Below, piece after piece: positions 7,131-45,115 of a DNA stretch of 64,000 bases (its first letter is position 1; each line of letters opens with the position of its first letter). The stretch covers positions 1,178,001 to 1,242,000 of the forward strand of contig NZ_CP087714.1 of NCBI RefSeq assembly GCF_039641995.1, read 5' to 3'. A model generated the notes under the pieces. The model saw nothing but the letters and a program-made list of their open reading frames with translations, was not told the origin of the DNA and did not search any database. The translations under genes were made by a program, and so were the position numbers. The stretch is from Geoglobus acetivorans (GTDB taxonomy: Archaea; Halobacteriota; Archaeoglobi; Archaeoglobales; Archaeoglobaceae).

Positions 7131-7823
7131 TCAAAGCTCACTCATCCTAGTTGAGTGTAAATTCAAAATTTTCAAAAGCTCTTCAACACTCTCAATAACA
7201 AAATCCGCACTTCCTCTTTTCTCCTCAAAGAAATTCCTGTCCCCATAGCTTGCATAAACGGTAACCATGCCCAGCCTCTTTCCCGCTTCAATGTCTCTCC
7301 TCAGACTGTCTCCAACAATAACCGCCTCCTCCGCTTTAACTCCGAGCCTGTTGAGAGCAAGAATAATCGAGTCTGGCTCCGGCTTCCTCTTCCCTGTCAT
7401 GTCTGAGGATACAACAACATCAAAATAGTGCAGAATTCCGGCCTTCTTGAGCCTGCCAACTGCATGGCCGTTCATTGCGTCGGTAACAACGGCCAGCTTC
7501 AGTCCCATTTTTTTCAGCCTTTCGAGAGTCTCTCCAACACCCGGATACGGCTCAATGCTTTCCAGCTTCACCCTCTCGTATATCTCGCAGCATTCACCGA
7601 ACTTCTCCTCGCAGTAAACTCCCCTGTCTTTCATGTAATCCGCTATGTTTCTCACATCCTCGAAACCGTGAACTCCCCTCAGAAAGTAGTTCAGCAGCTC
7701 ATGCTCATCCTCGTTCAGACCGAGACACTCTATCACAGCCCTGCATGCCTTCAGCTTCGCCTCAACAAAATCCAGCAGCGTGTTGTCCAGGTCGAAGATC
7801 AAGGCCCTAATTCTCGATGCCAA
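7131..7823 (-). CDS. HAD-superfamily hydrolase
   Basis: A 230-residue phosphatase-like protein with the four HAD motifs: DLDNTLLD near residue 10 (nucleophile and acid/base Asp), VVTDAMNG near 115 (motif II Thr), KPEPDS near 147 (motif III Lys) and VGDSLRRDIEAGKRLGM near 170 (motif IV). The length and helical cap fit the phosphoglycolate phosphatase-like branch; the substrate cannot be told. Its start overlaps the end of the PIN gene by 17 bases. It is therefore the last gene of the CARF-PIN-HAD operon, which is unusual company for a metabolic phosphatase. Confidence 0.9.
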   Translation of the reverse strand: MASRIRALIFDLDNTLLDFVEAKLKACRAVIECLGLNEDEHELLNYFLRGVHGFEDVRNIADYMKDRGVYCEEKFGECCEIYERVKLESIEPYPGVGETLERLKKMGLKLAVVTDAMNGHAVGRLKKAGILHYFDVVVSSDMTGKRKPEPDSIILALNRLGVKAEEAVIVGDSLRRDIEAGKRLGMVTVYASYGDRNFFEEKRGSADFVIESVEELLKILNLHSTRMSEL

Positions 7824-8823
7824 GTCTCATCAACCTCCTGCAGATGCGGAGATGTCTGCTGAAATCCTCATACAGTCGATTATCAAGGAACCTCAGCTTC
7901 AACTCGTCATGGCCCTTCTTCCCCCTGAACTCCCCGAAAACGACCACACTGTTGAGCCTCACAACTCCAAACACACTTGCGAGACTGTATATCAGGCCAA
8001 TCAGGGATCTGCAGCTGCAATAATCGGCATCGACCGCATGGGGTATGGTGAAGTGGAAGTACTCTATGCCTTCGGCCTCGCATATATCTGCCATCTGCCT
8101 GTCTGCTGTCAGCAGTACAGGCATCGCACCTCTTTCCCTCTCAAACCTCCTGAGAGTTCTGACGATTACGTAGTCGTTTGCCTCCCTGTCGTCAGTGGAT
8201 CTCTCCGCGCCTTCGATCTCTATCGCGAGCTTTCTCAGCTCCCTGTACTCCTTCATCGCAATGTATGCTGCAAGCCTCGACTTCTTCATCCTCCTGTTCA
8301 GAAATTCGTCCAGAAGGAAATTCTGATATCTGGCCAGTCTCTTCAGCTCTGAAATCAAAGCCGGAGTGTACTTCATGTTGAGAGATGCTTCGATTTCCTC
8401 TCTTGCCGTCTCAACGAGAAGTATTTCCTCAGGTTTGAAGAGAGATGAAGAAGAGAAGAATCGGTGATAGATGACGTTTGTGTCGGGGCAGAAATACACT
8501 CTCTTCTTCAAACTGCGATAGTGGTTGAGCATGTTTTTAAGTTCTTCAGCGTTTTCGTAGGAGATTACCCCACTTGCGAGCAGACATTCTGCAAAATCGC
8601 TGTAGGAAGGCATTTCATCTGCAAGGTGGTCGAAATGGCTCTGCTGATTGTCAAAATCAATCCTGCCCTGCATGATCTTCAGCTTGTAGGATTCGCCATG
8701 CTTTACAGCTTCAAGGAGCTGGAAGCGGGAGTATAGGGGATACATGACGCTAATATCATCCACAAGGTTCAGGAGGATCTGAAGTTCATCCGAGCTTATA
8801 ATTTCCTCGCTATAATTTGCCAT
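7807..8823 (-). CDS. PIN-domain ribonuclease, likely partner of the adjacent CARF protein
   Basis: A 338-residue protein. Residues 1-110 are of unknown fold. A PIN domain follows with all expected acidic positions: PDTNVIYHRFF near residue 118, ETAREEIEASL near 140, STDDREANDYVIVRTLRR near 215 and LLTADRQMADICEAEG near 242. This would be an Mg-dependent RNase. The start lies 2 bases after the stop of the CARF gene, so the pair is tightly coupled, and its end overlaps the HAD gene. Known CARF effectors include fused PIN domains; here the sensor and nuclease are separate genes. That the CARF protein controls this PIN is an inference from position. Confidence 0.82.
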   Translation of the reverse strand: MANYSEEIISSDELQILLNLVDDISVMYPLYSRFQLLEAVKHGESYKLKIMQGRIDFDNQQSHFDHLADEMPSYSDFAECLLASGVISYENAEELKNMLNHYRSLKKRVYFCPDTNVIYHRFFSSSSLFKPEEILLVETAREEIEASLNMKYTPALISELKRLARYQNFLLDEFLNRRMKKSRLAAYIAMKEYRELRKLAIEIEGAERSTDDREANDYVIVRTLRRFERERGAMPVLLTADRQMADICEAEGIEYFHFTIPHAVDADYCSCRSLIGLIYSLASVFGVVRLNSVVVFGEFRGKKGHDELKLRFLDNRLYEDFSRHLRICRRLMRLGIEN

Positions 8824-8825: not shown

Positions 8826-9308
8826 TTAATCCCCCTTCACAGCCTCCGCTTCCCGAATGAAATCTCTCAGGCTCTGATTTGCCATCGGGATCATCATGTA
8901 TGGCTTGCTTTCGAGCCTCTTAACTGCAAGATAGAAGACGTGATCCATTTTGTGCTTGACAGCCGGTATCAGCGCAGCGGCAACCAGAGCCTTCCTCCCC
9001 GCCGTAATGTCTATGGCTATGCTGCAACCCTCCTCCTTCAGCCTGCGTATAAGTTCGCTAATCATTCTGCCAGCACTAACAAAATCTGCTTCGGGAACAA
9101 GGTGGGTCTGAATCTCTGGAGAGATTCCAAACTCCTTGCTCAGAATTCTCATCCCTTCAGCGGCTTTTTCAAGCTCGTCTGCAAATACGTTCTCAGAGAA
9201 GATGTGGAGGGTATCTGGAAAATACTCTTTCTTCATCAGGACTGCGTAGTATGTGTTGATCAGCGCCCATGTGGAGCGGCCAAGGATTGTGATGTAGGCT
9301 CTTTTCAT
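8826..9308 (-). CDS. Stand-alone CARF-like domain protein
   Basis: A 160-residue protein that is almost only a Rossmann-like CARF domain. Strand 1 is AYITILGRSTWALINTYYAV. The ligand-loop motif IDITAGRKALVAAALIPAV near residue 95 matches the CARF consensus of an acidic residue, T/S-G-G/R-R/T-K and a following helix. There is no HTH, HEPN or nuclease domain, so it either signals to a partner or acts as a ring nuclease. It is the first gene of the CARF-PIN-HAD operon. Its promoter is the shared 23-bp element at 9341-9363, with an AGGTGA ribosome binding site just before the ATG. Confidence 0.78.
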   Translation of the reverse strand: MKRAYITILGRSTWALINTYYAVLMKKEYFPDTLHIFSENVFADELEKAAEGMRILSKEFGISPEIQTHLVPEADFVSAGRMISELIRRLKEEGCSIAIDITAGRKALVAAALIPAVKHKMDHVFYLAVKRLESKPYMMIPMANQSLRDFIREAEAVKGD

Positions 9309-9340: not shown

Positions 9341-9363
9341 TAATACTTAAACTTTTTGTTCAA
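9341..9363 (-). promoter_or_regulatory. Shared 23-bp promoter element, copy 1 (CARF-PIN-HAD operon)
   Basis: Read on the minus strand: TTGAAC, an A-rich stretch, then TTTAAGTATTA, ending 32 bases before the ATG of the CARF gene. TTTAAGTA is a plausible TATA box, with the A-run as BRE. TTGAAC sits upstream, where an archaeal activator could bind. Nearly identical copies are at 10125, 19357, 20208 and 22551 (plus strand). Confidence 0.8.
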
Positions 9364-9416
9364 CTAATTACTCACAGCCCCCGATCCTTCAAGTGGTTTA
9401 CCATCATCACAGACAC

Positions 9417-9725
9417 CTAAATGTTGTCAATAAGCACTATACCTTCCTTTTTGCATGCCCTTTCGAAATCACTGTCAAACGAAATCAGATATTTTATTCC
9501 ATAAAACCTGCAGGTGGCAAGAATCAGAGCATCGTTTGGCAGCAGGCCATATTTCTTCACAAACCTGTACGCCAGATTCCTGATTTCCCTATTGATTTCC
9601 AGCTCTTCAAAAATTTCGAAGAGCATGAAGAGTTCCTCAAGTTCATCTTCTTTCTCAACAATCAGTTCTGGATTGTTCTTCAGTTCGTAGCTCTTTTTCC
9701 CAGTAATCGCCTTCAAATCCCCCAT
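9417..9725 (-). pseudogene. N-terminally truncated PIN toxin (VapC-like)
   Basis: The 102-residue frame keeps only the C-terminal part of a PIN domain: LLPNDALILATCRFYG near residue 66 (third acidic site) and LISFDSDFERACKKEG (fourth). The first strand with the DTN/S motif and the second acidic site are missing; complete VapC proteins run to about 130 residues or more. It overlaps the end of the antitoxin-like gene at 9713 by 13 bases, as in a normal vapBC pair, so the loss is internal rather than by insertion. Without the first Asp it should be inactive. It could also be a divergent short protein. Confidence 0.65.
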
Positions 9726-9901
9726 TCCTCGTCTACCTCTTCGAGCATTTTCTCAAGGTTTTTGCCCTTGAATTTTCCGTGAAGCTTTTTCAAATTGTAT
9801 TCAAGCATGATTTCTCTCTCAATCCTCTCAACTACTCTGTCCAAATCCACCTGCTTCAATATTTCATCTGGGATTTTGAGCTTGACAGTTATCTCGCTCA
9901 T
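9713..9901 (-). CDS. Small antitoxin-like protein (partner of the truncated PIN protein)
   Basis: About 62 residues from the ATG at 9901 (MSEITVKLKIPDEIL), chosen because AAGGTGA stands 5 bases upstream; a GTG at 9910 would lie in that site. The start ITVKLKIPDEILKQVD resembles N-termini of archaeal VapB-like antitoxins, followed by a charged helix (RVVERIEREIM). It precedes and overlaps the truncated PIN gene. A TATA-like CTTAAATAGG lies about 35 bases upstream. Confidence 0.65.
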   Translation of the reverse strand: MSEITVKLKIPDEILKQVDLDRVVERIEREIMLEYNLKKLHGKFKGKNLEKMLEEVDEEWGI

Positions 9902-9938
9902 ACATGTCACCTTCAGAGATTGTTCTTGTACAACCTAT

Positions 9939-10122
9939 TTAAGGGTTCTCTGCCCTTGAATTCAGAAAGCCTTCAATCCGGGTTTTTACGAGTGTCATCC
10001 TGACATTTATCCATACTCTTTGTTTAAGTCGAAAGTTCTGCAACTCATATCCCGAAATTTTGCAGAATAATCCGTTCAGGCTCTCTTTTAATTTTTCGAG
10101 GTTATTTTCGACAGTGCCCTTT
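9939..10122 (-). other. Open frame without start codon downstream of promoter copy 2 (possible gene remnant)
   Basis: After the promoter-like element at 10125 the minus strand has about 60 codons open (KGTVENNLEKLKESLNGLF ... RIEGFLNSRAENP, stop at 9939), but no ATG or GTG near its beginning. The composition looks protein-like; I do not recognise a family. It may be what is left of a gene once driven by that promoter. Confidence 0.3.
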
Positions 10123-10124
10123 GG

Positions 10125-10147
10125 TAATACTTAAACTTTTTGTTCAA
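10125..10147 (-). promoter_or_regulatory. Shared 23-bp promoter element, copy 2 (over the vapC stop codon)
   Basis: Identical in all 23 positions to copy 1 at 9341. It overlaps the 3' end of vapC: the codons VEQKV and the stop TAA of that gene are read from it. No intact gene follows within 200 bases; only the start-less frame ending at 9939 does. It is either an orphan promoter or the scar of a recombination between copies. Confidence 0.65.
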
Positions 10148-10529
10148 CTTTTATCACTTCTACTCCCAGACTTTCAGCATCTTTCCTCAGCCTTTTATCG
10201 TAAGTGGCGAGCTTTCCGTATTTCTCTGCCACAGCGAGAATCACCATATCGTTGAACCTTGCTGAGCTCTTCGTCAGCTCAAGAGCCCTCCTTGTAAAGC
10301 TGCCATTATCACCGACAATTCTGCTCCTCTGGCTGTCGATGATGCTCTTCACAACCCTCTCAATATCTTCGCTGCTGTATCCTTCTTCCCTGAAAAACCA
10401 GTACAGCTCATAGATAACGATACTGGGAATGATCCACCTATCCAGCGAAGCAAGGAAGTCCCTTGCCTGCCGGTGAAATTCTGAATCCTGCAGAACAGCG
10501 TAGATGAACACGTTTGTGTCTATCACCAT
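10131..10529 (-). CDS. vapC: VapC-type PIN ribonuclease toxin
   Basis: A 132-residue PIN-domain protein with the four expected acidic sites: MVIDTNVFIYAVL at the N-terminus, SIVIYELYWFF near residue 40, FNDMVILAVAEKYG near 93 and LATYDKRLRKDAESLG near 107. VapC toxins cut tRNA or rRNA and are held by the partner VapB. The AbrB-type antitoxin gene lies 22 bases upstream on the same strand. The last codons overlap promoter copy 2. Confidence 0.92.
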   Translation of the reverse strand: MVIDTNVFIYAVLQDSEFHRQARDFLASLDRWIIPSIVIYELYWFFREEGYSSEDIERVVKSIIDSQRSRIVGDNGSFTRRALELTKSSARFNDMVILAVAEKYGKLATYDKRLRKDAESLGVEVIKVEQKV

Positions 10530-10551
10530 GCTGTCACCTTAATGTAACTCT

Positions 10552-10773
10552 TCATTCCTCTCTCATGCCCTTCCTGATGTTCTCCTCAATTTTCTCTACT
10601 GTAAGACCTTTTCCACCCTTTAGAACCGGAAGCTCAAGCCTCTCCTTCCTCAATACGATTTTGCTGCCCTCAATGTCGAAGATGAGGATATCTCCGACAT
10701 TTATACCGAGTTGTTCTCTAATTTCCTTAGGGATAGTAATCTGATAATTTCTAGTAACCTTGGTTGCAGGCAT
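10552..10773 (-). CDS. vapB: AbrB/SpoVT-type antitoxin VapB
   Basis: A 73-residue protein with the swapped-hairpin AbrB fold signature at the N-terminus (TRNYQITIPKEIREQLGINV, then GDILIFDIEGSKIVLRKE). The C-terminal 25 residues would wrap the toxin. It neutralises the VapC just downstream and probably represses the operon. The region upstream contains TTGAAC and CTTAAGC, but spaced differently from the shared promoter element. Confidence 0.93.
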   Translation of the reverse strand: MPATKVTRNYQITIPKEIREQLGINVGDILIFDIEGSKIVLRKERLELPVLKGGKGLTVEKIEENIRKGMREE

Positions 10774-10879
10774 AGTAGATTGTTTGTAATTACTATGCTT
10801 AAGCTTTACGCCTTAGTTGGTTGTTCAATCTTTTTATCTTTTTACAAGTATTTTTAAGTGGAACAGTGCAAAAATTAAA

Positions 10880-11320
10880 ATGGTGTCGCAAATGCCGGAA
10901 ATAGATACTGCCCTCGTGAACCGGAGACTTGCAGAGATAAAATTGCTCGCTGACGAGCTGAAGGAAATACTTGACATGGGATTGGAAAAGTTTCTATCCG
11001 ATTCGTACGTAAGAGATGCGGCGAAATACAAGCTCCTTGTTGCAATCGAAGCCGCAATATCTATCTGCAATCACATTGCCGTAAGGGTTGCTAAAGAGGT
11101 TCCGGGGAGCTATTCTGAGTGCTTCATAATTCTCGGAAGAAGTGGGGTAATCTCTGAAGAGCTGGCGAAGAAGCTGGCTGAAATGGCAAAGTTCAGAAAC
11201 ATGCTTGTTCATGTCTACTGGAAAATTGACGACCGAAAGGTCTATGAGATAATCGGAAGGGATTTATCTGATCTAGACAGATTCATTGATGAGGTGAGGG
11301 CGTATCTTGGACAGGGATGA
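10880..11320 (+). CDS. hepT: HEPN-domain toxin (HepT)
   Basis: About 146 residues from the ATG at 10880 (MVSQMPEIDTALVNRRLAEI). The frame opens further upstream at 10817, but the TATA-like ATTTTTAAGTG just before 10860 makes the internal start more likely. The HEPN catalytic motif R-x4-H is RNMLVHVYW near residue 116, within the HepT-like helix pattern. HepT is an RNase toxin inactivated by AMPylation or binding of the MNT partner. The gene overlaps mntA by 14 bases, the usual toxin-first order. Confidence 0.93.
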   Translation: MVSQMPEIDTALVNRRLAEIKLLADELKEILDMGLEKFLSDSYVRDAAKYKLLVAIEAAISICNHIAVRVAKEVPGSYSECFIILGRSGVISEELAKKLAEMAKFRNMLVHVYWKIDDRKVYEIIGRDLSDLDRFIDEVRAYLGQG

Positions 11321-11693
11321 CATAAAAAATAGAATCAAAAATATCCTGAAGGGCAGAGAAGAGGTTATATTCGCATACCTGCACGGTAGTTTTGGCGAAG
11401 CCCACTTCAGAGATGTCGATGTAGCAGTTTTTGTGGATGAGGGTAAAGTGAAGGACTTTATCCAGTATGAGGTCGAGCTGTCAATCGAAATTGAGAAATC
11501 TGTAAAACTTCCTGTTGATGTCAGAGTCCTGAACTCTGCCCCCCTCAGCTTCAAGTACCGGGCGATCAGGGGAGAGCTTCTGCTCAGCAGGGACGATGAG
11601 CTGAGATTCAGGTTTATGGAGGAAGTAATACGAGAATATCTGGATTTCAAGCCGGTCGAAGAGAGGATGATCAGAGAGATACTGAGTATGTGA
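11307..11693 (+). CDS. mntA: MNT-type nucleotidyltransferase antitoxin (MntA)
   Basis: A 128-residue minimal nucleotidyltransferase. The active-site motif GSFGEAHFRDVDVAVFV near residue 28 has the Gly-Ser and the paired Asp residues, and LPVDVRVLNSAPLSFKY supplies the third strand region. In the HepT/MntA family this enzyme adds AMP to a Tyr of the HEPN toxin and silences it. It overlaps the hepT end, so the two are coupled. Confidence 0.93.
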   Translation: MDRDDIKNRIKNILKGREEVIFAYLHGSFGEAHFRDVDVAVFVDEGKVKDFIQYEVELSIEIEKSVKLPVDVRVLNSAPLSFKYRAIRGELLLSRDDELRFRFMEEVIREYLDFKPVEERMIREILSM

Positions 11694-11694
11694 T

Positions 11695-11790
11695 CTAACT
11701 CAGGCCAACTGCATTTTTCAATCTTTCTTTAAAGTCAGTGGACAGCCTGCCGTTTTCGAATACATTTTCAAGCGATATGGTTCGAACATG
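11695..11790 (-). other. C-terminal gene stump
   Basis: A short minus-strand frame reads HVRTISLENVFENGRLS and TDFKERLKNAVGLS before a TAG at 11695. It is blocked upstream by a stop about 25 bases beyond 11790, and has no start codon. The composition looks coding, but I do not recognise the family. It is the only thing seen between mntA and the YhaN-like gene. Confidence 0.3.
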
Positions 11791-11852
11791 CAAATTGATC
11801 CCCCCAGATTGGTTTTATCATTCATCAGGCCGAGCTTCAAGTTTTGTTCGAG

Positions 11853-14800
11853 TCAGTTTCCGAAGGAAATCTTCGTAATTCTGAGTCCTGTTACATCCTC
11901 ATTAGACATCTGAAGTCCTCTTTCTGTAGCAATCTTCTCCAATAAGTCAACCTGATATTTGTGGCATGTGAAGAAGATTACTTGGTATTTGGCCGATAAA
12001 TCTATAAGCAGCTTTAGCCCATTTTCAAGTCTCTGTGGATCATAGTTTGCAAATATATCATCTATTATCAAGGGAAGAGATTCGTAATTTCTGGTTAGCA
12101 TTTCTGCAATGGTAACTTTGAGTATGAAATAAATCTGATCAATTGCACCTCTGCTAAGATAGTCACACTTTGCAAATATTTTGTGTTCTGGGTCCCTAAC
12201 ATTTACATCTAAGTCATCGTCAACGCGTATATCGCTATACTTGCCTGTAACCATCTTTACCACAGGAGAAATTCTTTCGTTCAACACTCTGACAAAGTCC
12301 TTTGTAAAATCTCGTTCTGCTTCAATTAGTGTTTTTTTGGCAATTTCTAAAGCATCCCTACACATCTCTAACTCGTTTACTTTTTCTTTCACCTCTGCAA
12401 TTGCCTCTTCGATCTCTTGGATGGGCTTGTAACTCTTTTCAAGGATTTCTATCCTCCCTTCATTTATCTTAATCTGCTCTCTTAATTGAACTATTCTCTC
12501 CCTTACTTCTTTGAGATTTGCTTTAATTTCTTCCTTGCTTAATCTAATATATGTACGGTCTCCTTTAACACGCTCGATCTCTTGTTTGAGTTCTTCTAGT
12601 TCATTCTTATAGTCTTCGAGGCTCTTATCCCCAAGAAGAGCGGACCTCTTAGCTTTCAGCTTGTTCAATTCTGAGATCTCATTGCTAGCTTTGGCGTACT
12701 CATCATACGCTCTTTTTAGATCATCAAAAGACTCTACAGAGTATTTGCTGAGTATTCTCGATAATTCGTCCTCAGTTTTTCTTAGATTGTTTTTAACTCT
12801 CTCAACCTCTTCTTCCAATCTTGTAATCTGTCCCCTTATACTTTCGAGGGATTTTTTAGCTTCCAAAACGGATTTCAGGTCTTTGATTGCCATGTCTATT
12901 GAGGATGTGATTTTCTCAATTCTTTCATTTATTTTCGATTCGTCCTCTGAATCATCAAACTCTAACCCGATTTTGGAGAAGATATCTTTTACAGCTTCAA
13001 TGTGCAATCTGATTTTGTCTTTAACACGCTCGATCTCTTGTTTGAGTTCTTCTAGTTCATTCTTATAGTCTTCGAGGCTCTTATCCCCAAGAAGAGCGGA
13101 CCTCTTAGCTTTCAGCTTGTTCAATTCTGAGATCTCATTGCTAGCTTTGGCGTACTCATCATACGCTCTTTTTAGATCATCAAAAGACTCTACAGAGTAT
13201 TTGCTGAGTATTCTCGATAATTCGTCCTCAGTTTTTCTTAGATTGTTTTTAACTCTCTCAACCTCTTCTTCCAATCTTGTAATCTGTCCCCTTATACTTT
13301 CGAGGGATTTTTTAGCTTCCAAAACGGATTTCAGGTCTTTGATTGCCATGTCTATTGAGGATGTGATTTTCTCAATTCTTTCATTTATTTTCGATTCGTC
13401 CTCTGAATCATCAAACTCTAACCCGATTTTGGAGAAGATATCTTTTACAGCTTCAATGTGCAATCTGATTTTGTCTATGGTCTCGTCTCGTCTTTTTTGC
13501 AATCTCTCTACATCCTGGTTTATTAAATCGAGTTTTCCAGATATTGACTTGAACTTTCTGTATTTTTCTAGAAATTCTTCTTTGCTTGCTACACCAAATC
13601 TATGGAGTAACTCTTTAGATTTATCCTGTAAACTCATGGATTCCAATTCCTTTCGTAATTTACTTACCTCTTTCCTCAGATTATCAATTTCTTCAGCTTT
13701 TGGCGCGCCTTTAAGATAAAGCAAAGCTGCAATTACGAGTAATCCGCCTATCAGAACCATTATTGTTGGTGCTCCAAGTACTGGAGAAATTCCCATTAAA
13801 GTGCCCAAAACTGACAGGATTAGTGAATTTCTCCTTTTTAAGTATCTACTTCTCTCTAATAACTCAATTTGCAACTTGTTTGCCTCAATTTTCTCTTTTT
13901 TAGCCTGCGCCCATTCTTCATAATATTGTTCTCTAGTTTTGCTCTCCAATAGTTCATTCACTTCTTCTTCACTTACAGTCTTAAATCTTGACAGTTCGGA
14001 AAGAGTTTTAGACAATTCTTCTTTATCTTTCGATAATGCTTTAATCTGATCTTCAATCGATTCAAGTGAGCTTTTTTCGATTTGCAATTCTTTGTAAGTT
14101 TCCTCTAATTTCTCAATAAATTCGCTAACTTTGTCAGCATATACTGGCAAGGTACTCTCTAGTTTCCTCATTTGCACTTGATACTCGCCTAATTCCGCTT
14201 TAAGTTTCCTCAACTGTTCAGATAGTTCAGCTCGTTTAGCATTCAAAGCAACAGCAGCCTGAAAATCTTCTTTATCTATCTCCAAAATCTCTTTTTCACG
14301 TAAGATATGCATGAGCTCATCAATTTCTTTCTGGGTTTCTTCGACTGCTTTTATTTTCTCCTCCAAGTCATTTTTACTGACGACTAGTTTAATCGATTCA
14401 AGTGAGCTTTTTTCGATTTGCAATTCTTTGTAAGTTTCCTCTAATTTCTCAATAAATTCGCTAACTTTGTCAGCATATACTGGCAAGGTACTCTCTAGTT
14501 TCCTCATTTGCACTTGATACTCGCCTAATTCCGCTTTAAGTTTCCTCAACTGTTCAGATAGTTCAGCTCGTTTAGCATTCAAAGCAACAGCAGCCTGAAA
14601 ATCTTCTTTATCTATCTCCAAAATCTCTTTTTCACGTAAGATATGCATGAGCTCATCAATTTCTTTCTGGGTTTCTTCGACTGCTTTTATTTTCTCCTCC
14701 AAGTCATTTTTACTGACGACTAGTTCAGCATATTCCAAATTTCTTTTCGTTTCAGTTAATTGAGTAAGCTCCAATCTTAAATTCTGCAACTCTTCTAGTT

Positions 14801-15470
14801 TCTCTAAAATTTCTTTAAATGTTTTTTTCGATTTCTCTAATTCATCTCCAAGCTCCTTAAGTTTATTGGCATATGATCCAAGCGGTTTTGATAGAGCATG
14901 GCGTGTACCTATTTTATTCAGTGCGTTTTCGAGTTTCTCTACTGCAAATTTAGACGATATATCCTCAGAACCAGTACTTACGATAGCTTGTATTCTGTCT
15001 TTAAGACTTTCTCTATTGGATAGGGAATCCACCATGTTTTGGCATATGAAAACTGTATCCTTGAAAATGGTCTTATCCACTCCCAAAAGCTCTTCTGCAA
15101 AGTTGGAGTCTCCATTTCGTGTCCGGCTAAATTTATTGGTAATATCATTGCCAAATTCGTCATAAACATTGACTGTTTTTTTGCCAAAATCGCGCACGAC
15201 TTCATAAATCCCGCCATTATCCAGCCTAAAGCGGATTGTCCCTCCCCATCTTTCCCCATTCCAGGGTTTTTTGAGAAGGACCTCATTCTCATATCTCTTC
15301 TGTTTTATGTCATGTCTGAGAGGTCCATAAACCATCGCTATTATGAAATTCTGTAAAGTGGATTTACCAGCCTCATTCTCACCATAAATGACATTTAAGG
15401 AGGGGGAGAACTCCAGTTCTAAATCGTTAAGTTTACCATGTGCCCACACATGCAATTTTTCGATAATCAT
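11853..15470 (-). CDS. YhaN/Rad50-like SMC ATPase with membrane-associated hinge and two internal duplications
   Basis: A 1205-residue ABC/SMC-type ATPase. The Walker A GENEAGKSTLQNF is near residue 34 and Walker B PLIIDDIFANYDP near 1135, with two long coiled-coil arms between. Near residues 543-590 lie two hydrophobic segments (LILSVLGTLMGISPVLG, IMVLIGGLLVIAALLYL), so the hinge is probably membrane-embedded, as in YhaN rather than Rad50. Residues 249-360 are repeated exactly at 361-472, and 666-817 at 818-969. Without these the protein would be about 941 residues. It overlaps the phosphoesterase gene by 4 bases. The pair probably processes DNA ends, possibly at the membrane. Confidence 0.9.
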   Translation of the reverse strand: MIIEKLHVWAHGKLNDLELEFSPSLNVIYGENEAGKSTLQNFIIAMVYGPLRHDIKQKRYENEVLLKKPWNGERWGGTIRFRLDNGGIYEVVRDFGKKTVNVYDEFGNDITNKFSRTRNGDSNFAEELLGVDKTIFKDTVFICQNMVDSLSNRESLKDRIQAIVSTGSEDISSKFAVEKLENALNKIGTRHALSKPLGSYANKLKELGDELEKSKKTFKEILEKLEELQNLRLELTQLTETKRNLEYAELVVSKNDLEEKIKAVEETQKEIDELMHILREKEILEIDKEDFQAAVALNAKRAELSEQLRKLKAELGEYQVQMRKLESTLPVYADKVSEFIEKLEETYKELQIEKSSLESIKLVVSKNDLEEKIKAVEETQKEIDELMHILREKEILEIDKEDFQAAVALNAKRAELSEQLRKLKAELGEYQVQMRKLESTLPVYADKVSEFIEKLEETYKELQIEKSSLESIEDQIKALSKDKEELSKTLSELSRFKTVSEEEVNELLESKTREQYYEEWAQAKKEKIEANKLQIELLERSRYLKRRNSLILSVLGTLMGISPVLGAPTIMVLIGGLLVIAALLYLKGAPKAEEIDNLRKEVSKLRKELESMSLQDKSKELLHRFGVASKEEFLEKYRKFKSISGKLDLINQDVERLQKRRDETIDKIRLHIEAVKDIFSKIGLEFDDSEDESKINERIEKITSSIDMAIKDLKSVLEAKKSLESIRGQITRLEEEVERVKNNLRKTEDELSRILSKYSVESFDDLKRAYDEYAKASNEISELNKLKAKRSALLGDKSLEDYKNELEELKQEIERVKDKIRLHIEAVKDIFSKIGLEFDDSEDESKINERIEKITSSIDMAIKDLKSVLEAKKSLESIRGQITRLEEEVERVKNNLRKTEDELSRILSKYSVESFDDLKRAYDEYAKASNEISELNKLKAKRSALLGDKSLEDYKNELEELKQEIERVKGDRTYIRLSKEEIKANLKEVRERIVQLREQIKINEGRIEILEKSYKPIQEIEEAIAEVKEKVNELEMCRDALEIAKKTLIEAERDFTKDFVRVLNERISPVVKMVTGKYSDIRVDDDLDVNVRDPEHKIFAKCDYLSRGAIDQIYFILKVTIAEMLTRNYESLPLIIDDIFANYDPQRLENGLKLLIDLSAKYQVIFFTCHKYQVDLLEKIATERGLQMSNEDVTGLRITKISFGN
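12563..13474. repeat. Perfect tandem duplication, unit 456 bp, in the C-terminal coiled-coil arm
   Basis: Units 12563-13018 and 13019-13474 appear identical base for base by eye. The unit is 152 codons long, so the frame is kept. Flanking bases differ, which fixes the ends to within two bases. The repeated block starts and ends inside coiled-coil sequence (from DKIRLHIEAVKDIFS to KQEIERVK). Confidence 0.95.
14055..14726. repeat. Perfect tandem duplication, unit 336 bp, in the N-terminal coiled-coil arm
   Basis: Units 14055-14390 and 14391-14726 match in all but their junction base by eye; the unit is 112 codons. The block encodes coiled coil (from VVSKNDLEEKIKAVEE to KSSLESI). It lies in the arm opposite to the 456-bp duplication, on the other side of the hydrophobic hinge. 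Confidence 0.95.
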
Positions 15471-16588
15471 AGAATTTGCACCTCTTTTTTGTCGCTGTCA
15501 AAAGCTTCGAGCCCATAATACAGGGCTTTCATCCAAACCTCCTCTTTTTCGGGATTTTGCTCAATTTTACTGAGTATTCTTCTTACAAATTCACCTCTGA
15601 GAGTATTTTCTTGGGATATGGCTTGAATATCATAGGCAGGATTGGTTTCGTTCTCAACGATAGCGTGATAGAATTGTTTTTTAGCTGCAGCCTCTATTTC
15701 TTCTAATCGTAGTTCCACTGATGGGCTAATTTCCCCTTTAAGAATGATTTTCACGATATTGCGCTCATTAATTCCACTTTGTTTTATCTTGGATATTATG
15801 TCTGCAGAACAAGTTGCTGATGAACAATCTATTTCGAGTATTTCGTAGTTTCTGATTCCTGTTGGAACCTTTTCCAGCTTCACAGTATTACTGGAAATTT
15901 TTACGAGTAATGCATTTCTTTCACCAATCTCATCAAAGTTTAATGGCTCAAGTGTTCCAGGGTAAACTGCTCTGACTTCACCATCAATTTCTATTTCTGC
16001 ATATTTATGGTAGTGGCCAAGGGCAAGATAGTTCAAATTAGAATTTTTCAAATCTCCATCAGTAAATGGCAAACACATTTTACTGGATTCAGGGAGCAAC
16101 ATGGAGTATGGGCTGTAAGAACCATGCATAATTCCTATAGTGGGCGTGTCGGTTTCAACTCTGAGTTTGGCTAAGTGATTGGTAGTATCGTTGTCCCATA
16201 CGTTTGCGATTCCATATACTAGATATTGTTCATTCAATTCTATTTCTTCAAAAAAATTTTTGGAAAAAATATATACGTTTTCTGGCCACTTGATCAGAGA
16301 ATACAGCGAGTTTTTGGTGTAGGGGTCATGGTTTCCGGGTGTAATGAAAATAGGGATATCTAAAGACTCAAAGCATTTTTTGATGAAATATCCAAGGTCC
16401 CTTGTTGCGTACTTTGCCTCATACAAATCTCCCGCTATAAGTATTGCGTCAACGTCAAAATCTTCAGCATTATTTAAAATCTCTTCAAAAGACTGTTTTA
16501 ACTCCAATCTTCTTTCGTATCCTTTTGGTCCTAAGAATCTAAATGGTGCTTCAAGATGTATATCGGAAATATGTAACAGTTTTATCAA
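15467..16588 (-). CDS. YhaO/Mre11-like metallophosphoesterase (DNA exonuclease)
   Basis: A 373-residue calcineurin-like phosphoesterase with Mre11-type motifs: HISDIHLEAPFRF near residue 6, ILIAGDLYEAKYATRDLG near 50, TPGNHDPYT near 83, IGIMHGSYSPYS near 150 and ALGHYHKYAEI near 189. The capping domain follows. The start is a TTG at 16588, supported by AGGTGAT 6 bases upstream and a TCTATAAATAA TATA box some 25 bases before that. It overlaps the ATPase gene by 4 bases. Together they resemble the YhaO-YhaN exonuclease/ATPase pair. Confidence 0.9.
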   Translation of the reverse strand: MIKLLHISDIHLEAPFRFLGPKGYERRLELKQSFEEILNNAEDFDVDAILIAGDLYEAKYATRDLGYFIKKCFESLDIPIFITPGNHDPYTKNSLYSLIKWPENVYIFSKNFFEEIELNEQYLVYGIANVWDNDTTNHLAKLRVETDTPTIGIMHGSYSPYSMLLPESSKMCLPFTDGDLKNSNLNYLALGHYHKYAEIEIDGEVRAVYPGTLEPLNFDEIGERNALLVKISSNTVKLEKVPTGIRNYEILEIDCSSATCSADIISKIKQSGINERNIVKIILKGEISPSVELRLEEIEAAAKKQFYHAIVENETNPAYDIQAISQENTLRGEFVRRILSKIEQNPEKEEVWMKALYYGLEAFDSDKKEVQIL

Positions 16589-16695
16589 GCTATCACCTCA
16601 AGTTTATTTATAGACGCTCATTGAGGTTTGTGCTAGTATTTAAATTTAATTTCTCCAATTGTTCATAATCAGCGTAATATCTCAAAATAATTTTG

Positions 16696-16812
16696 CTACA
16701 CTCCATACAATCTTCTCTCGCTAAATTCAAACACTGTTTCGTGGTCAATTTTATCAGAAAAATTCTGATATGGTGTTTCAAGTGTATACTCAGACCCCCA
16801 CTCTCCCACCAT
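16696..16812 (-). other. C-terminal gene stump overlapping the end of the beta-CASP gene
   Basis: A minus frame reads EWGSEYTLETPYQNFSDKI and then DHETVFEFSERRLYGV to a TAG at 16696. It partly overlaps the last codons of the upstream beta-CASP gene in another frame. The phrase YTLETP recalls the end of M14 carboxypeptidase-like proteins, but this is weak. It has no start of its own and is likely a leftover. Confidence 0.3.
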
Positions 16813-18307
16813 CTCTAAACACAACCACACTCTCAAAGTTTTCCGCAAACCACTCATGGTTTGTGGTATGCACCGGAATGATCACATCCGGATCAATCTG
16901 CTCGATTATCCACCTCAGATCCTCTTTTGAGGCATGCCCTGAGGCGTGGTAGCCCTTTATGAACTCAGGAGCCAGTTTTCCATCTTTCAGCACCATCCTG
17001 AAGCCGTAGACCCTCAGATTGAATTCTCTCAGCCAGTTGTACAGTCTGAGAAAGTCGAACTCCTGTTCTTCGCTGAACGCCTCGCTCGAAGAGTAGATGT
17101 ACGCTCCACCATCCGGCTTTATGTCGAGCAGATGCTTCATGTCGTGGAATGAAAAGCAGAGAATGTAGTTCTCTGGATTTTTCGAAATCTCTGCTGGATC
17201 GACGAACTTTTCACCCCACCTCTTCATGATGGTTTCCGTTTCCCATTTGGCTCTTGACCTGTCTTTAATTTCGTAATAAATTCGAGCATCTTCCAGCCTG
17301 CAAACTCCATCAGCACACTCGATGGCATGAAGCATGTAGGCGTCTTTTGCAGTTACAACAAGCTCTCTCCCAGTTTTTCGTGCAATTTTCAGAAAAGTTT
17401 CAAGCCTTTCAAAATTTCTCGGTGAGAAATCAGCTATTACGATCCCTTTCGACTCTTCAACAGCCCTGAGACAGTTCTCAAATACTGTTTTTTCAGATTC
17501 ATTCTCGTCATCTCTCGAAGTTCTTGTCCCTTCTGTAATCAGAACCCGCGCATCCCTGCTATTTTTGACGAACTCCCTTGTTTTGGCAGCGTTTCTGCCG
17601 TGAAGCCTGAGATCTCCGGTATACGATACTGCCACATCCCCGTAGATGATGTATGCATTGGCCCCGTAGATTGAGTGATCAACCTCAAAAGCCCTGACCT
17701 CGAACGGTAGTGCGGTGTCAGATATGTGGGTCACTTCTCCATCCACAATACCTTTTGTCCCGGGTCTGCTTGAGACGAACTCCATGAGATCATCAGAAAA
17801 TTCAGAAGTGCACACGAATTTCCGTCCCACATAATTGCCGCTTTTGGATTTGAGGTACCTTCCATTCTCCTGAGGCGCTCTGGGAGAGAAGTACGCTATC
17901 TCCGATCCAATCTTTGCTTGTGAGGAATCCCTCAATGCCTTGAGGATGGCAACCGATATTGGTGAGGAGACTATGGCGATGTTCTCGCTGAGCAGGCCGA
18001 TGTTCCCGCAGTGGTCCATGTGGGCATGGCTCAAAAGAACTGCCCCGACATTGAGCTTAGGGTATGATGAAGTGTCCAGATCGGATGGTATCAGGTCCTT
18101 TCTGTAAACATTTATCTTCGGAATCAGGTCGAGGTGAATGAGGTCGTGAATGCCCCTTCCGCTCCTCTCTGTCAGAAATTCCTGGAAATACTGGCTGTAT
18201 TTCGCAAAGTTCATGCCGAAGTCCAGAAAAACTCCCCTGCCGTCTTCTTCAACGTAGATCTTGTTCCCGCCGATTGTTGTCGCACCATCGTAAACTGTTA
18301 TTTTCAT
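16790..18307 (-). CDS. RNase J-like beta-CASP metallo-beta-lactamase nuclease
   Basis: A 505-residue MBL-fold protein. The zinc motif HxHxDH is LLSHAHMDHCGNIG near residue 93. Further ligands are VDHSIYGANAY, YTGDLRLHGRNA near 230 and the C-terminal HASGHASKEDL and IPVHTTNHEW, an RNase J-type arrangement with a beta-CASP insertion (VLITEGTRTSRDD). RNase J proteins act as 5'-3' exo- and endoribonucleases. The gene starts inside the end of the RmuC gene (4-base ATGA overlap), an unusual pairing. It may act on foreign nucleic acid, but that is inference. Confidence 0.87.
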   Translation of the reverse strand: MKITVYDGATTIGGNKIYVEEDGRGVFLDFGMNFAKYSQYFQEFLTERSGRGIHDLIHLDLIPKINVYRKDLIPSDLDTSSYPKLNVGAVLLSHAHMDHCGNIGLLSENIAIVSSPISVAILKALRDSSQAKIGSEIAYFSPRAPQENGRYLKSKSGNYVGRKFVCTSEFSDDLMEFVSSRPGTKGIVDGEVTHISDTALPFEVRAFEVDHSIYGANAYIIYGDVAVSYTGDLRLHGRNAAKTREFVKNSRDARVLITEGTRTSRDDENESEKTVFENCLRAVEESKGIVIADFSPRNFERLETFLKIARKTGRELVVTAKDAYMLHAIECADGVCRLEDARIYYEIKDRSRAKWETETIMKRWGEKFVDPAEISKNPENYILCFSFHDMKHLLDIKPDGGAYIYSSSEAFSEEQEFDFLRLYNWLREFNLRVYGFRMVLKDGKLAPEFIKGYHASGHASKEDLRWIIEQIDPDVIIPVHTTNHEWFAENFESVVVFRDGGRVGV

Positions 18308-19329
18308 TCTTCTACCTCCTCAAGCTTGGCAATTGTAGAATAATACCCTTTTAGACTGGCTATGGATTGCTGGACTTTTGACAAGTTACTGTAGGCGTTG
18401 CTAACGTGTCTTGAGAGCGTTTCAAATCTAGAATCAACATCATTGATGTAGCTGCCAAGCACATTTATTTTATTCTGGATTTCGTCAGCTCTCTTTGAGA
18501 TCTCTTCAGCCTTTATTCTGGCAGAGATTAGAGAAAGGTAGGCTGGAAGCACTGAAGGAGATGTCAGAATTACTCCTGCCTTGGATGCCTCAACTGCAAT
18601 GTCTGGAGATTCAGAGACGAGGTGGTGGAATATCGCATCAGATGGAACGAACATGAAAGCAAAGTCAAGAGTGCTTTCTTTCCCCACGTACTTCTTCCTG
18701 ATCTCCTCAATGTGATTTTTCACGTCTTTTATGAAATCTCTCCAGTACTTCTCCTTCTCAGATTCGCTATTCGCCTCACTGTACTTCCTGAAGTTCTCAA
18801 GCGGGAATTTTGAGTCTATGCAGAGATACCTGCCATCTTCTACAAGAATGCATGCGTCCGGAATACCAACTCCAATATTTTTCTGAAACTGAATGCGAGA
18901 AGCTGGAAAGATGTCCTTCAGCAAGCTTTCGAGCTGGAGCTCGCCAAATTTTGCCCTCGCATGCTTCACCTGAAACATTGTTTTCAGGTCGGAGGTTATC
19001 GCCTTGAGATCTGCAGAAGCTTCACTCAGCTTTCCAAGATCCTCCTGAATTCCCAGCTCTTTCAGGGAGGTTGCAAAGGCACCCTTTATCACTTCTGAAT
19101 TCTTTGTTATGGCCGATGCAAAGAGACTTTCGAAAACTCCTGCCGAGTTCTGGAACGTTTTTGCAACAGCACCTTCAACCCATTCTGGCAAACTTCTGTT
19201 CAAATCTTCGAATTTCCTGCTGACCTCCTCGATCCTGCTTTCAGCATTCCTCTGCTTGAGGATCACATACCCCAGAACTGCAAGAACGGTGATCGGCAGC
19301 AATATGTCGTAGAATTCCGCGACCTGCAT
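18304..19329 (-). CDS. rmuC: RmuC-family protein (membrane-anchored nuclease fold)
   Basis: A 341-residue protein. An N-terminal transmembrane helix (YDILLPITVLAVLGYVIL) is followed by coiled coil and then the RmuC domain with its PD-(D/E)XK-like core: NIGVGIPDACILVEDG, YLCIDSKFPLENFRKY near residue 170 and TLDFAFMFVPSDAIFHHL. RmuC limits DNA inversions in bacteria; its biochemical role is poorly known. It is the first gene of a two-gene operon with the beta-CASP nuclease and is driven by promoter copy 3 with an AGGTGGTGA ribosome binding site. Confidence 0.88.
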   Translation of the reverse strand: MQVAEFYDILLPITVLAVLGYVILKQRNAESRIEEVSRKFEDLNRSLPEWVEGAVAKTFQNSAGVFESLFASAITKNSEVIKGAFATSLKELGIQEDLGKLSEASADLKAITSDLKTMFQVKHARAKFGELQLESLLKDIFPASRIQFQKNIGVGIPDACILVEDGRYLCIDSKFPLENFRKYSEANSESEKEKYWRDFIKDVKNHIEEIRKKYVGKESTLDFAFMFVPSDAIFHHLVSESPDIAVEASKAGVILTSPSVLPAYLSLISARIKAEEISKRADEIQNKINVLGSYINDVDSRFETLSRHVSNAYSNLSKVQQSIASLKGYYSTIAKLEEVEE

Positions 19330-19356: not shown

Positions 19357-19379
19357 TATTACTTAAACTTTTTGTTCAA
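19357..19379 (-). promoter_or_regulatory. Shared 23-bp promoter element, copy 3 (RmuC/beta-CASP operon)
   Basis: On the minus strand TTGAAC, an A-run, then TTTAAGTAATA; one base differs from copy 1. It ends 27 bases before the rmuC ATG, so TTTAAGTA is correctly placed as a TATA box for a short leader. Confidence 0.8.
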
Positions 19380-19493: not shown

Positions 19494-20189
19494 TCAGTTT
19501 AGAGCTGCAGTTATCGCCTTTCCGAGTTCCGTAAGCATTATCTTCACGTTTCTGCCATGCTTCTCTCTCTTGACAAACCCTGCCCTTTCAAGCTTTGAGA
19601 GGTGGTGGCTCAGCCTGCTCCTCTCACTCTGGAACTCTCTGCTTCCCCTGTCAATTTCTGGATTGAGCTTTATTACCAGCTCATCGAGGGAAGATACACC
19701 GTCTCCTATGGCTTTCAAAATCTCCATCTGCTCCTTTCCGGGAAAGCTTACCGGTAGGATGGGCAGTTCCACGATCTCCTCTATTCCTTCTTCCTCATCG
19801 TTTTCACCGTATTTCGGAATTGAGGAGAACACCCTTGAATTCGTGATGCTCGCGGCAATGTATGCTGCAATTGCGAAAGTTCTGAGAGAGCCCGAGACGT
19901 TGAACACAACCTCATTACCATTCTCCCGCTCTCTCTCTGCCACCTCCACAAGCTCGAGAACAGCGTTCATGATGTTTTTCTTGTCAATCTCCACAATCTC
20001 GACGTCAAATATTGTTTTGAGCTCATCTGCAATTTCCCGGGCAACTCTTCTGGCCTTCCTCTCACCACTCGTGTCAGGCTTTCCAACTGCGAGAATGATT
20101 CTGGTGACGGGCAGTTCCCTGAGGGCGCGGATGGATTCGATAATCCTTTCCCTTGTGTGTCCGATGAACGTGATCTGGGTTACGGGCAT
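19494..20189 (-). CDS. CARF-HTH transcriptional regulator (Csa3-like)
   Basis: A 231-residue protein. The N-terminal CARF domain has TQITFIGHTRERIIESI at the start and the ligand loop VVFNVSGSLRTFAIAAYIAA near residue 100. The C-terminal winged helix has KEQMEILKAIGDGVSSLDEL and SRLSHHLSKLERAGFVKREK, ending in LTELGKAI. This is the layout of Csa3, a regulator of CRISPR genes whose CARF domain can bind cyclic tetra-adenylate. Its own promoter is copy 4 of the shared element, so it is the best candidate for the factor binding all copies. It lies far from the cas genes. Confidence 0.85.
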   Translation of the reverse strand: MPVTQITFIGHTRERIIESIRALRELPVTRIILAVGKPDTSGERKARRVAREIADELKTIFDVEIVEIDKKNIMNAVLELVEVAERERENGNEVVFNVSGSLRTFAIAAYIAASITNSRVFSSIPKYGENDEEEGIEEIVELPILPVSFPGKEQMEILKAIGDGVSSLDELVIKLNPEIDRGSREFQSERSRLSHHLSKLERAGFVKREKHGRNVKIMLTELGKAITAALN

Positions 20190-20207: not shown

Positions 20208-20230
20208 TAATACTTAAATTTTGCGTTCAA
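20208..20230 (-). promoter_or_regulatory. Shared 23-bp promoter element, copy 4 (CARF-HTH regulator gene)
   Basis: On the minus strand TTGAAC, GCAAAA, then TTTAAGTATTA. The end is 18 bases from the ATG, which puts the start codon about 26 bases from the TATA centre, so the transcript is probably leaderless. Confidence 0.8.
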
Positions 20231-22550: not shown

Positions 22551-22573
22551 TTTAACGAAAAATTTAAGTATTA
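22551..22573 (+). promoter_or_regulatory. Shared promoter element, copy 5 (plus strand)
   Basis: Reads TTTAAC, GAAAAA, then TTTAAGTATTA, matching the other copies except for a G-to-T change in the TTGAAC box and GA for AA. The ATG of the broken gene at 22592 follows at leaderless distance, as for copy 4. Confidence 0.65.
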
Positions 22574-22794: not shown

Positions 22795-24045
22795 ATGTCG
22801 GGAATCACACTCGGAGATGATAGAGAGACTGTTTATATCCAGTGTGAGATAAAGAGCCGGGAACTGTTCGAGGTTTTGCAGGATATTGAAGATGACAAAA
22901 GACTCGAAGTTTTTGTCGACATTGTGAAAATCGGTGTTACGGGATACAGAAGGATGAATATCGGCGTGGATCTTGATTTCGTGGAGAAGAAAATAGAAGA
23001 GATGCTTTCAAAGCTGGAGGAAACACTTGATCCCCATCTCGAAACAAGCCTTTTGGGAGTCTTCATGTCGAGAGTTAAGGAGTACTTTGACAGAGGGGGC
23101 AAAATTGAGGATATTCTGGATCCAGAAACGGAGAACACACCTCTCGGAAAATTCGTCAGATCGCTTAAGGAATATTTCGACAGCGGCGGGAAGCTTGAAA
23201 GCCTGCTGAATCCAGACAGCGAAACCAGCCCCATTGGAAGGTTCAGTAAAAAGCTTGAAGAATATCTCGGCAGAGGTGGACGGCTCGAAGAGCTTCTGAA
23301 TCCGGCGGAGGACGATTCGCCATTAGGAAAGTTGAAGAAGGAAATCCTCCGGGAAATCAAAGAGATCAGAGATATTCTCAGCAAAGAAGAGGGCAGAAAA
23401 GAAGTGGTTGACGCCACAACACTGAAGGGTTACGTGTTTGAAGACGCATGTGAGGAAATTCTCAGCGGCTGCGTAGGATTTGGTGAGTCGATAATCAGAA
23501 CAACGGATGAAGTTGGAAAAATCCCTCGAAGCAAAAAGGGTGATTTTGTTGTGGAACTTGAAAACGGGAAAAAGGTAGTTTTTGAAGTCAAAGACTGGCA
23601 AAATGTATCTCTTAATAAAATCAAGGATGAAGTCAGCGAGGCGATAGAAAACAGGGGTGCTGATTATGGTGTTTTCGTCTCGAAATACATTGAAGCTCTG
23701 CCTAAGAGCGTTGGGTGGTTTAACGAATATGGAAACATCTTAGTCTGTGCACTCGGGAGCAGAGAGGCGGACACTTTCCATCCAGAAATGCTGCACGTAG
23801 CCTACCAGTGGGCAAAGATGAAGTTGAAGGCTGAAGGGGATGCTGACAGGGAAGCTATTAATAGAGTAATGAGTGAATTGGATAAACTAAATGACGAACT
23901 CTACAACCTTTCTGAGATCAAAAAGAAGTGTAGAAGTGCAAAGAAGGCAATAGATGATGTGGAGAAGATTGCGAATAGCCTCGAGGAGTCTCTTGAGGAG
24001 AGCCTAGATTCCCTTAAAAAAGCTCTGGGTGCTGTGGCAGGATAG
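22795..24045 (+). CDS. Putative PD-(D/E)XK nuclease with tandem 30-residue repeats
   Basis: A 416-residue protein. Residues 75-185 hold four copies of a motif of about 30 residues: LDPHLETSLLGVFMS, LDPETENTPLGKFVRSLKEY, LNPDSETSPIGRFSKKLEEY and LNPAEDDSPLGKLKKE, each with a GGK/R-(I/L)E linker. Then comes a nuclease-like core, GYVFEDACEEIL near residue 210, KKGDFVVELENGKKV and VFEVKDWQNV near 265: the E...D...E-x-K order of restriction-like nucleases. The C-terminus is coiled coil. The repeats may be a multimerising or DNA-spanning arm. It is probably a defence nuclease; the fold call is from the motif only. Confidence 0.7.
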   Translation: MSGITLGDDRETVYIQCEIKSRELFEVLQDIEDDKRLEVFVDIVKIGVTGYRRMNIGVDLDFVEKKIEEMLSKLEETLDPHLETSLLGVFMSRVKEYFDRGGKIEDILDPETENTPLGKFVRSLKEYFDSGGKLESLLNPDSETSPIGRFSKKLEEYLGRGGRLEELLNPAEDDSPLGKLKKEILREIKEIRDILSKEEGRKEVVDATTLKGYVFEDACEEILSGCVGFGESIIRTTDEVGKIPRSKKGDFVVELENGKKVVFEVKDWQNVSLNKIKDEVSEAIENRGADYGVFVSKYIEALPKSVGWFNEYGNILVCALGSREADTFHPEMLHVAYQWAKMKLKAEGDADREAINRVMSELDKLNDELYNLSEIKKKCRSAKKAIDDVEKIANSLEESLEESLDSLKKALGAVAG

Positions 24046-29068: not shown

Positions 29069-29107
29069 TAAATCACCAGCACTTTTTTAGATTGTGGTAA
29101 GATTTGA

Positions 29108-29539: not shown

Positions 29540-29670
29540 ATTTACCACCATTAACTCTCTAAACTGGGTAGATATCAAAACATACTTCGTGACATATAAT
29601 ATTACCGGAAGGGCTCTGTCGGTTCTTAAAATTATATTTTATTTAATTCGGCTAATATTGCTAATGGGTC

Positions 29671-45014: not shown

Positions 45015-45115
45015 TAGCCATCCCGGAGAAAATCCGATAAAATTTCAGATTTCCAAACTATTCTCGGAAGTATTATCGAAAGCTATATATCTTAGAGAAA
45101 GTGCTTTTACTTCAA

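Follow-up and report, generated by a model that had tools for sequence, protein, structure and literature searches.

Csa3-type CARF-HTH proteins control defence genes in Sulfolobus islandicus (Csa3a, Csa3b), where Csa3b binds a cyclic oligoadenylate (cOA) analogue and, when overexpressed, increased nurA-rad50-mre11-herA 2.4-3-fold (PMC7480081). A membrane-anchored RmuC domain is found in the Shield protein ShdA, which protects against phage and degrades DNA in vitro (PMC10270631), and in the CoCoNuT superoperons a CARF-type regulator heads McrBC-like genes, ShdA, TPR proteins and a metallo-beta-lactamase-fold protein (PMC11090510). Here, a window of 64,000 nucleotides (G000:C1:1178001-1242000) of the single-contig genome of Geoglobus acetivorans (1,903,522 bp) was analysed, in which genes for RmuC and a beta-CASP metallo-hydrolase directly follow a gene for a CARF-HTH regulator.

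The G. acetivorans regulator resembles Csa3a and Csa3b in its CARF and winged HTH domains and its putative control of defence genes, but it is of the HFX_2341/DUF6293 type, its proposed regulon includes RmuC-betaCASP, and its orthologues often occur without Cas10. Compared by description, RmuC shares the membrane-anchored RmuC domain of ShdA (>520 aa, residue numbers to 526) but has 341 aa, a beta-CASP partner and putative CARF-HTH control. The CoCoNuT regulator is RtcR-like (sigma54) and the ShdA-bearing examples come from Pseudomonas; unlike those superoperons, the genes studied here form short, dispersed operons behind a common operator. No McrBC adjoins RmuC-betaCASP in the window, and relatives have McrB/McrC. 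The beta-CASP protein has the fold and metal ligands of RNase J and EF2904 (2az4), with Asn in place of the motif-B histidine. The nuclease-domain model of RmuC matched the PD-(D/E)XK domain of Can2/Card1; RmuC has no CARF domain, unlike those proteins, and its control would be transcriptional, not allosteric.

Among the openly licensed papers listed, no description was found of the RmuC-betaCASP/CARF-HTH arrangement or of a CARF-HTH operator, and RmuC and CARF were named jointly only in the CoCoNuT work; the CARF group of this regulator is already catalogued in the PADLOC models. As far as the literature searches go, the parts are known, and what is new is the operator-defined regulon together with the pairing of RmuC and beta-CASP. 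The usual reading of CARF regulators places them within type III CRISPR signalling. A CARF-HTH regulon in genomes that give no Cas10 match makes testable the ligand sensed by such regulators, the transcriptional co-ordination of unrelated archaeal defence systems and the co-operation of a membrane RmuC DNase with a beta-CASP RNase, and its operator provides a sequence handle for locating more defence genes in Archaeoglobi.

On balance, we favour the view that RmuC-betaCASP forms one operon within an accessory defence regulon, which would be controlled by the product of the CARF-HTH gene immediately upstream. The features of the locus are listed in Table 1. On the minus strand, the CARF-HTH gene is followed after 164 nt by the RmuC gene and then by the beta-CASP gene; both open reading frames (ORFs) and their 4-base overlap (18304-18307), which had been noted in a preliminary description of this DNA, were confirmed. 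Of the 10 RmuC-betaCASP pairs listed from relatives, 9 show the same overlap (exception, L062), which is therefore not due to chance. The regulator matched HFX_2341_N and DUF6293_C over their cut-offs and scored 46.9 bits with the Csa3 model TIGR01884 (cut-off, 60.2); across 14 aligned regulators the HTH motif ERSR-SH and the CARF motif NxSGSLR are conserved, the latter as DTSGSLR in L063. Neighbourhood, co-occurrence and a common putative operator support the tie between RmuC-betaCASP and the regulator, in keeping with the accessory, defence-like and CARF-linked character first proposed for the pair.

Table 1. Features of the G. acetivorans window (window coordinates)
Feature	Position	Strand	Remarks
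Type I restriction-modification genes	1515-6711		
HAD-like hydrolase	7131..7823	-	PADLOC Hydrolase, 42 bits; cluster-mate L050 matches Pfam HAD_2
PIN-domain protein	7807..8823	-	Resembles PIN part of CARF_m1--CARF_PIN fusions
CARF_m1 protein	8826..9308	-	First gene of CARF_m1-PIN-HAD operon; PADLOC CARF_m1, 208 bits
Operator, perfect	9344..9363	-	35 nt upstream of CARF_m1
Operator, perfect, orphan	10128..10147	-	Syntenic copy in G025 precedes Mrr_cat gene
Rad50/YhaN-like gene	11853..15470	-	Two predicted membrane segments at hinge; separate insertion
Mre11/YhaO-like gene	15467..16588	-	Separate insertion, outside assigned regulon
Beta-CASP metallo-hydrolase	16790..18307	-	EF2904/RNase J-like
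RmuC	18304..19329	-	One predicted N-terminal membrane segment, coiled coil, PD-(D/E)XK-like nuclease domain
Operator-promoter of RmuC-betaCASP, TTGAACAAAAAGTTTAAGTA, perfect	19360..19379	-	30 nt upstream of RmuC ATG
CARF-HTH regulator	19494..20189	-	HFX_2341/DUF6293 type; probable master regulator
Operator, 3 mismatches	20211..20230	-	21 nt upstream of CARF-HTH ATG (putative autoregulation)
Operator, 3 mismatches	22551..22570	+	21 nt before 50-aa remnant of small Hjc/Mrr-like protein
HKD-SNF2 helicase and Eco57I-type methylase genes	25706-34592		
Type III-A csm locus with Cas10 (Csm complex)	45760-52247		

The putative composite operator/promoter TTGAACAAAAAGTTTAAGTA, noticed as a repeat in the window sequence, is an imperfect palindrome (CTTGAAC-AAAAA-GTTTAAG). 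Searched as a 19-mer with up to 3 mismatches, it gave 4 matches in the 64-kb window against 0.08 expected. A search of the whole genome (1.9 Mb) with up to 3 mismatches gave 7 sites, 5 of them inside the window, compared to 2 for the reversed control pattern; the perfect copies number 3 genome-wide and all lie inside the window. The promoter at the CARF-HTH gene had been thought to serve RmuC and beta-CASP as well: the same type of operator does precede both transcription units, but RmuC has its own copy. In relatives, the operator lies 20-22 nt upstream of CARF-HTH in 18 of 21 called copies (it is at 5 nt in L056, within the called ORF in L061 and lacking in L229) and exactly 30 nt upstream of RmuC in 6 loci. 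Other genes preceded by it encode CARF_m1 (L050, L051, L226), Mrr_cat (L047), an RNase_H_2 exonuclease (L228) and small Hjc/Mrr-like proteins. Over its first 29 residues, the 50-aa remnant in the window shares 66% identity with a Hjc/Mrr-like protein of 107 aa from G014, whose gene has an operator at the same 21-nt distance. Two cases are weaker: a 955-aa gene in L054, followed by a DEAD/MZB helicase gene, has a site at 135 nt that fits a second consensus, TTGATAGAAAAATTTAAGTA, which joined the survey after inspection of the data, and a Piwi gene in L225 has a site with 3 mismatches 114 nt away. Through this Piwi-domain gene (G003, L225 278-2740) an argonaute may belong to the operator regulon.

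In 20 genomes hand-chosen from the 59 Archaeoglobi genomes and searched with the original pattern only, sites with up to 2 mismatches were present in 9 of 10 genomes with an orthologous regulator and 0 of 10 without, the latter having 14 three-mismatch sites only. This distribution bears on a reading of TTGAACAAAAAGTTTAAGTA as merely a strong archaeal promoter kept with its genes, the CARF-HTH protein regulating other genes and RmuC-betaCASP being constitutive. The right half of the operator, AAAAR-TTTAAGTA, resembles an archaeal B recognition element (BRE)/TATA element, and the fixed 21-/30-nt spacing to the start codon is as expected of a basal promoter; if the half-site is indeed BRE/TATA, the regulator, once bound, would cover part of the promoter. 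We consider the promoter-only reading improbable, since sites within 2 mismatches are missing from all 10 genomes that lack the regulator, the operator also precedes unlinked defence-like genes, and in 334 kb of module loci TTGA was found at operator spacing before TTTAAGTA in 31 of 48 cases, against 0/38 before the related TTTAAATA and 0/15 before TTTATATA.

The module is patchily distributed and is not part of the core genome: RmuC was matched in 14 of the 59 Archaeoglobi genomes and beta-CASP in 27 (E 0.001). A close CARF-HTH orthologue (at least 250 bits) is present in 23/59, and any match, distant paralogues included, in 53/59. All genomes with RmuC except G055 (13 of 14) have beta-CASP next to it; a second RmuC in G014 (L066 9400-10422) has no beta-CASP partner and no operator nearby. 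With beta-CASP counted at 50% identity or more and at least 50 bits (26 genomes; a weak match in G057 excluded), beta-CASP and CARF-HTH occur together in 21 genomes, beta-CASP alone in 5, CARF-HTH alone in 2 and neither in 31 (Fisher P 2e-9, uncorrected for relatedness).

In Archaeoglobi, beta-CASP stands between the CARF-HTH gene and a variable gene set, which may be RmuC, McrB and McrC, a NurA-HerA-Mre11-Rad50 cassette, a class II glutamine amidotransferase, a TPR protein or a phosphatase-like protein, and a CARF_m1-PIN-HAD operon is frequent nearby. On a 60-row beta-CASP tree the label "RmuC upstream" required 6 changes; L089, which also has RmuC upstream, was left unlabelled, and by inspection this does not alter the count. 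On plasmid pTBMP1 of Thermococcus barophilus, a 56%-identical beta-CASP lies immediately downstream of an HSDR_N nuclease-like gene and is followed by genes for a glutamine amidotransferase, a gamma-glutamylcyclotransferase, an ADP-ribosylglycohydrolase, a TPR protein and a DUF2357/PD-(D/E)XK protein. Against the sister genome G025, RmuC is 77.5% and beta-CASP 70% identical, compared to 94% for CARF-HTH and 86-100% for most flanking genes, a divergence that would suit fast evolution or exchange. A beta-CASP search of the genome collection gave 74 loci, of which 2 without a called beta-CASP gene were excluded; module genes lie within 7 kb of beta-CASP in 17 of 18 Archaeoglobi-named loci, and HerA/Mre11/Rad50-type genes adjoin it in four Lokiarchaeota loci. 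In the phylum sample, RmuC was found in 25 of 294 genomes (24 over the cut-off), 13 of them Archaeoglobi. A pairing of RmuC with beta-CASP outside Archaeoglobi was not found: in 7 RmuC loci scanned among those of the 12 non-Archaeoglobi genomes, no beta-CASP was seen about 1.5 kb to either side, and the RmuC profile made here recognised RmuC in 5 of these 7. A gene of 242-243 aa follows beta-CASP in G010 (L053 137-865) and Mrr_cat in G025 (L047 6541-7266); the L053 copy weakly resembles zinc-dependent phospholipase C (16.5 bits, below the cut-off). In a Lactobacillaceae locus (L135), YhaO/YhaN are weakly matched (31 and 42 bits) within about 3 kb of a distant beta-CASP (75 bits), possibly by chance.

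These neighbourhoods could also be taken to mean that RmuC-betaCASP serves DNA/RNA repair or processing under genotoxic or heat stress and that the defence genes are mere neighbours. Mre11-Rad50-HerA-NurA neighbours and the many Lokiarchaeota beta-CASP copies in conserved non-defence neighbourhoods speak for a repair function, and RmuC of Escherichia coli is reportedly linked to recombination. We regard it as unlikely, however, because beta-CASP is missing from 32 of the 59 Archaeoglobi genomes, its partners are exchanged, relatives lie on plasmids, and RmuC and beta-CASP have diverged more than the neighbouring genes.

For the favoured defence regulon the following mechanism is proposed. At rest, the CARF-HTH protein, probably as a dimer, would occupy TTGA-N8-TTTAAGTA, a site overlapping the promoters of the target operons and that of the regulator gene itself. 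An infection-linked nucleotide would bind the CARF domain and change DNA binding, by relief of repression or by activation, so that the operons would be expressed jointly. RmuC would then act as a membrane-tethered DNase, beta-CASP with it as a nuclease of RNA (or of nucleic-acid 5' ends), while CARF_m1-PIN would provide another RNase arm, itself under ligand control. RmuC would be one interchangeable DNA-attacking partner of beta-CASP, in whose place McrBC or Mre11-Rad50-HerA-NurA would stand elsewhere. More tentatively, the CARF-HTH protein of Archaeoglobi may be a master switch, often in Cas10-less genomes, that answers an infection signal and turns on modular nucleases through a portable operator; these would be RmuC with its unusual beta-CASP RNase, CARF_m1-PIN and Mrr-like proteins and, in some genomes, McrBC or Mre11-Rad50-HerA-NurA.

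The assignment of RmuC is based on a match to PF02646 at 171 bits (cut-off, 26); its best PADLOC match was RTasRmuC (51 bits), and a sequence search of the PDB gave nothing useful. Hydropathy predicts one membrane segment, at the N terminus, for 12/12 homologues, which agrees with the membrane anchor of the preliminary description, and D158, D172 and K174 are invariant in the 12/12 homologues aligned. An AlphaFold2 model of modest quality (mean pLDDT 67.6) gave no Foldseek match below E 0.001. In a second look with VIA-align, residues ~104-276 superposed on the nuclease domains of Can2 (7bdv; Z 9.4, root-mean-square deviation (rmsd) 3.6, 138 residues), Cdn1 (9u49; Z 9.2, rmsd 2.8, 121 residues) and VC1899 (Z 8.5, rmsd 3.0, 117 residues), the highest Z being just moderately over the typical background of the tool. 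The modelled fold thus appears to resemble PD-(D/E)XK nucleases, and the best matches include cA4-activated nucleases. A surface-associated action against entering DNA, as first suggested for this locus, would have its basis in the predicted membrane segments and the Shield analogue.

The beta-CASP protein matched RMMBL (26.6 bits) and Lactamase_B (25.2 bits) over their cut-offs and the RNase J model TIGR00649 at 64.9 bits, below the cut-off of 400. Its closest relative is EF2904 of Enterococcus faecalis (PDB 2az4; E 1e-18 by sequence, E 8e-25 by fold with Foldseek), followed by fold by an archaeal RNase J (5ws2, E 5e-20, Foldseek). Residues H94, H96, D98, H99, H211, D232 and H480, presumably the zinc ligands of the metallo-beta-lactamase site, are invariant in 15/15 sequences, as are E259, H454 and H458. 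In the HMMER alignment, Asn298 (15/15) stands at the motif-B histidine of RNase J. Judged from these sequences, the protein belongs to the beta-CASP family but is not a standard RNase J. Against the type VII Cas14 model NF045584 it scored 15.6 bits (cut-off, 800).

Several observations weigh against the proposed defence regulon. The replacement of the motif-B histidine by Asn298 may mean that beta-CASP activity is altered or lost. One regulator-bearing module genome, G053, yielded nothing when searched with the original pattern at up to 3 mismatches; its locus has a TTGATAG variant. Outside Archaeoglobi, few beta-CASP loci have module genes within 7 kb (5 of 24 that are Lokiarchaeota-named; 6 of the 30 others), and many Lokiarchaeota copies have transporter genes and a gelsolin-like gene as neighbours (L088), with a gene order repeated across genomes, so that a housekeeping role is likely for those copies; such neighbourhoods count against naming the whole beta-CASP family a defence family. 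Finally, 13 of the 23 regulator-bearing genomes have no Cas10 match, and because of this cOA made by Cas10 is one signal source at most and never the general one.

The Cas10 distribution also bears on a reading of the locus as an ancillary module of type III CRISPR, in which cOA from the Csm complex binds CARF-HTH and induces RmuC-betaCASP. The Cas10-containing Csm locus in the same window and the properties of Csa3b cited above would suit it. Cas10 palm-domain matches were found, however, in 22 of the 59 genomes, namely 10 of the 23 regulator-bearing ones and 12 of the 36 others; G025 and G014, which carry the module and are single contigs of 99% completeness, gave none, and no operator lies upstream of the Csm locus. 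An obligatory type III signal source is ruled out by this distribution, and we doubt that the module is ancillary to type III CRISPR. A CBASS-type cyclase was likewise rejected as a general source, SMODS being over the cut-off in 7/59 genomes with no match in G000, G025 or G014. By analogy with the RtcR-linked CoCoNuTs (PMC11090510), RNA ends with a cyclic phosphate are a candidate signal.

Downstream of beta-CASP, after a gap of 201 nt, lie the Mre11-like and Rad50-like genes, which had been grouped with RmuC and beta-CASP as the neighbouring YhaO/YhaN pair. Their family assignment held: the Mre11-like phosphoesterase (PF00149) and the Rad50-like ABC-ATPase head (PF13476, also AAA_27-like) scored over the cut-offs, and hydropathy predicts two hydrophobic segments near residues 549-586 of the Rad50-like protein, at the hinge. 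Rad50_zn_hook (PF04423) was not among its hits at E 0.01 and is present in the Rad50 of L049. Membership of the same unit was not supported. In the alignment with G025, window 10122-11795 corresponds to L047 7608-9281 and window 16708-17503 to L047 9282-10075; the flanking pieces are contiguous there, hence 11796-16707 is an insertion in G. acetivorans or a clean loss in G025. The Mre11-like protein scores 836 bits against itself and at best 42 bits in the other 58 Archaeoglobi genomes, and the window scan found no operator upstream of the pair. The pair is best seen as a separate 4.9-kb cassette that landed in the island, and its inclusion in the RmuC-betaCASP unit was rejected in view of synteny and distribution. 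A looser link exists in that unrelated Mre11-Rad50-HerA-NurA cassettes adjoin beta-CASP in other archaea. A single membrane complex of RmuC, beta-CASP, Mre11 and Rad50 would fit the common strand of the four genes and the predicted membrane segments in RmuC and the Rad50 hinge, but is very hard to reconcile with a cassette that is missing from G025, has no close Mre11 relatives, is set 201 nt apart and carries no operator. The Rad50-like gene contains two exact in-frame tandem duplications, one per coiled-coil arm (residues 250-360, repeat at +112 aa, 335 nt exact; residues 666-817, repeat at +152 aa, 458 nt exact), which would mean either that both arms have lengthened recently or that the assembly is at fault here.

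The surroundings in the window are rich in defence genes (Table 1) and include two CRISPR arrays. A segment of ~37.8 kb (21753-59551) that holds the type III-A locus, the CRISPR arrays and the Eco57I/helicase genes has no counterpart at the corresponding place in G025, a large island difference between G000 and its sister genome. A second CARF-HTH protein (45101-45769), 24% identical to the regulator studied, is encoded at the head of the csm locus, with no operator of this type near it. Between the perfect operator copies at 9344 and 10128, the window has an antitoxin/PIN-like stretch (9366-10121) where G025 has Mrr_cat and the 242-aa gene, a cassette exchange bounded by operator copies. Two adjoining ORFs (10817-11693) are kept in G025 and resemble what we take to be a HEPN/MNT toxin-antitoxin pair. 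A DUF2130 protein (22795-24045) is encoded downstream of the decayed operator-driven gene.

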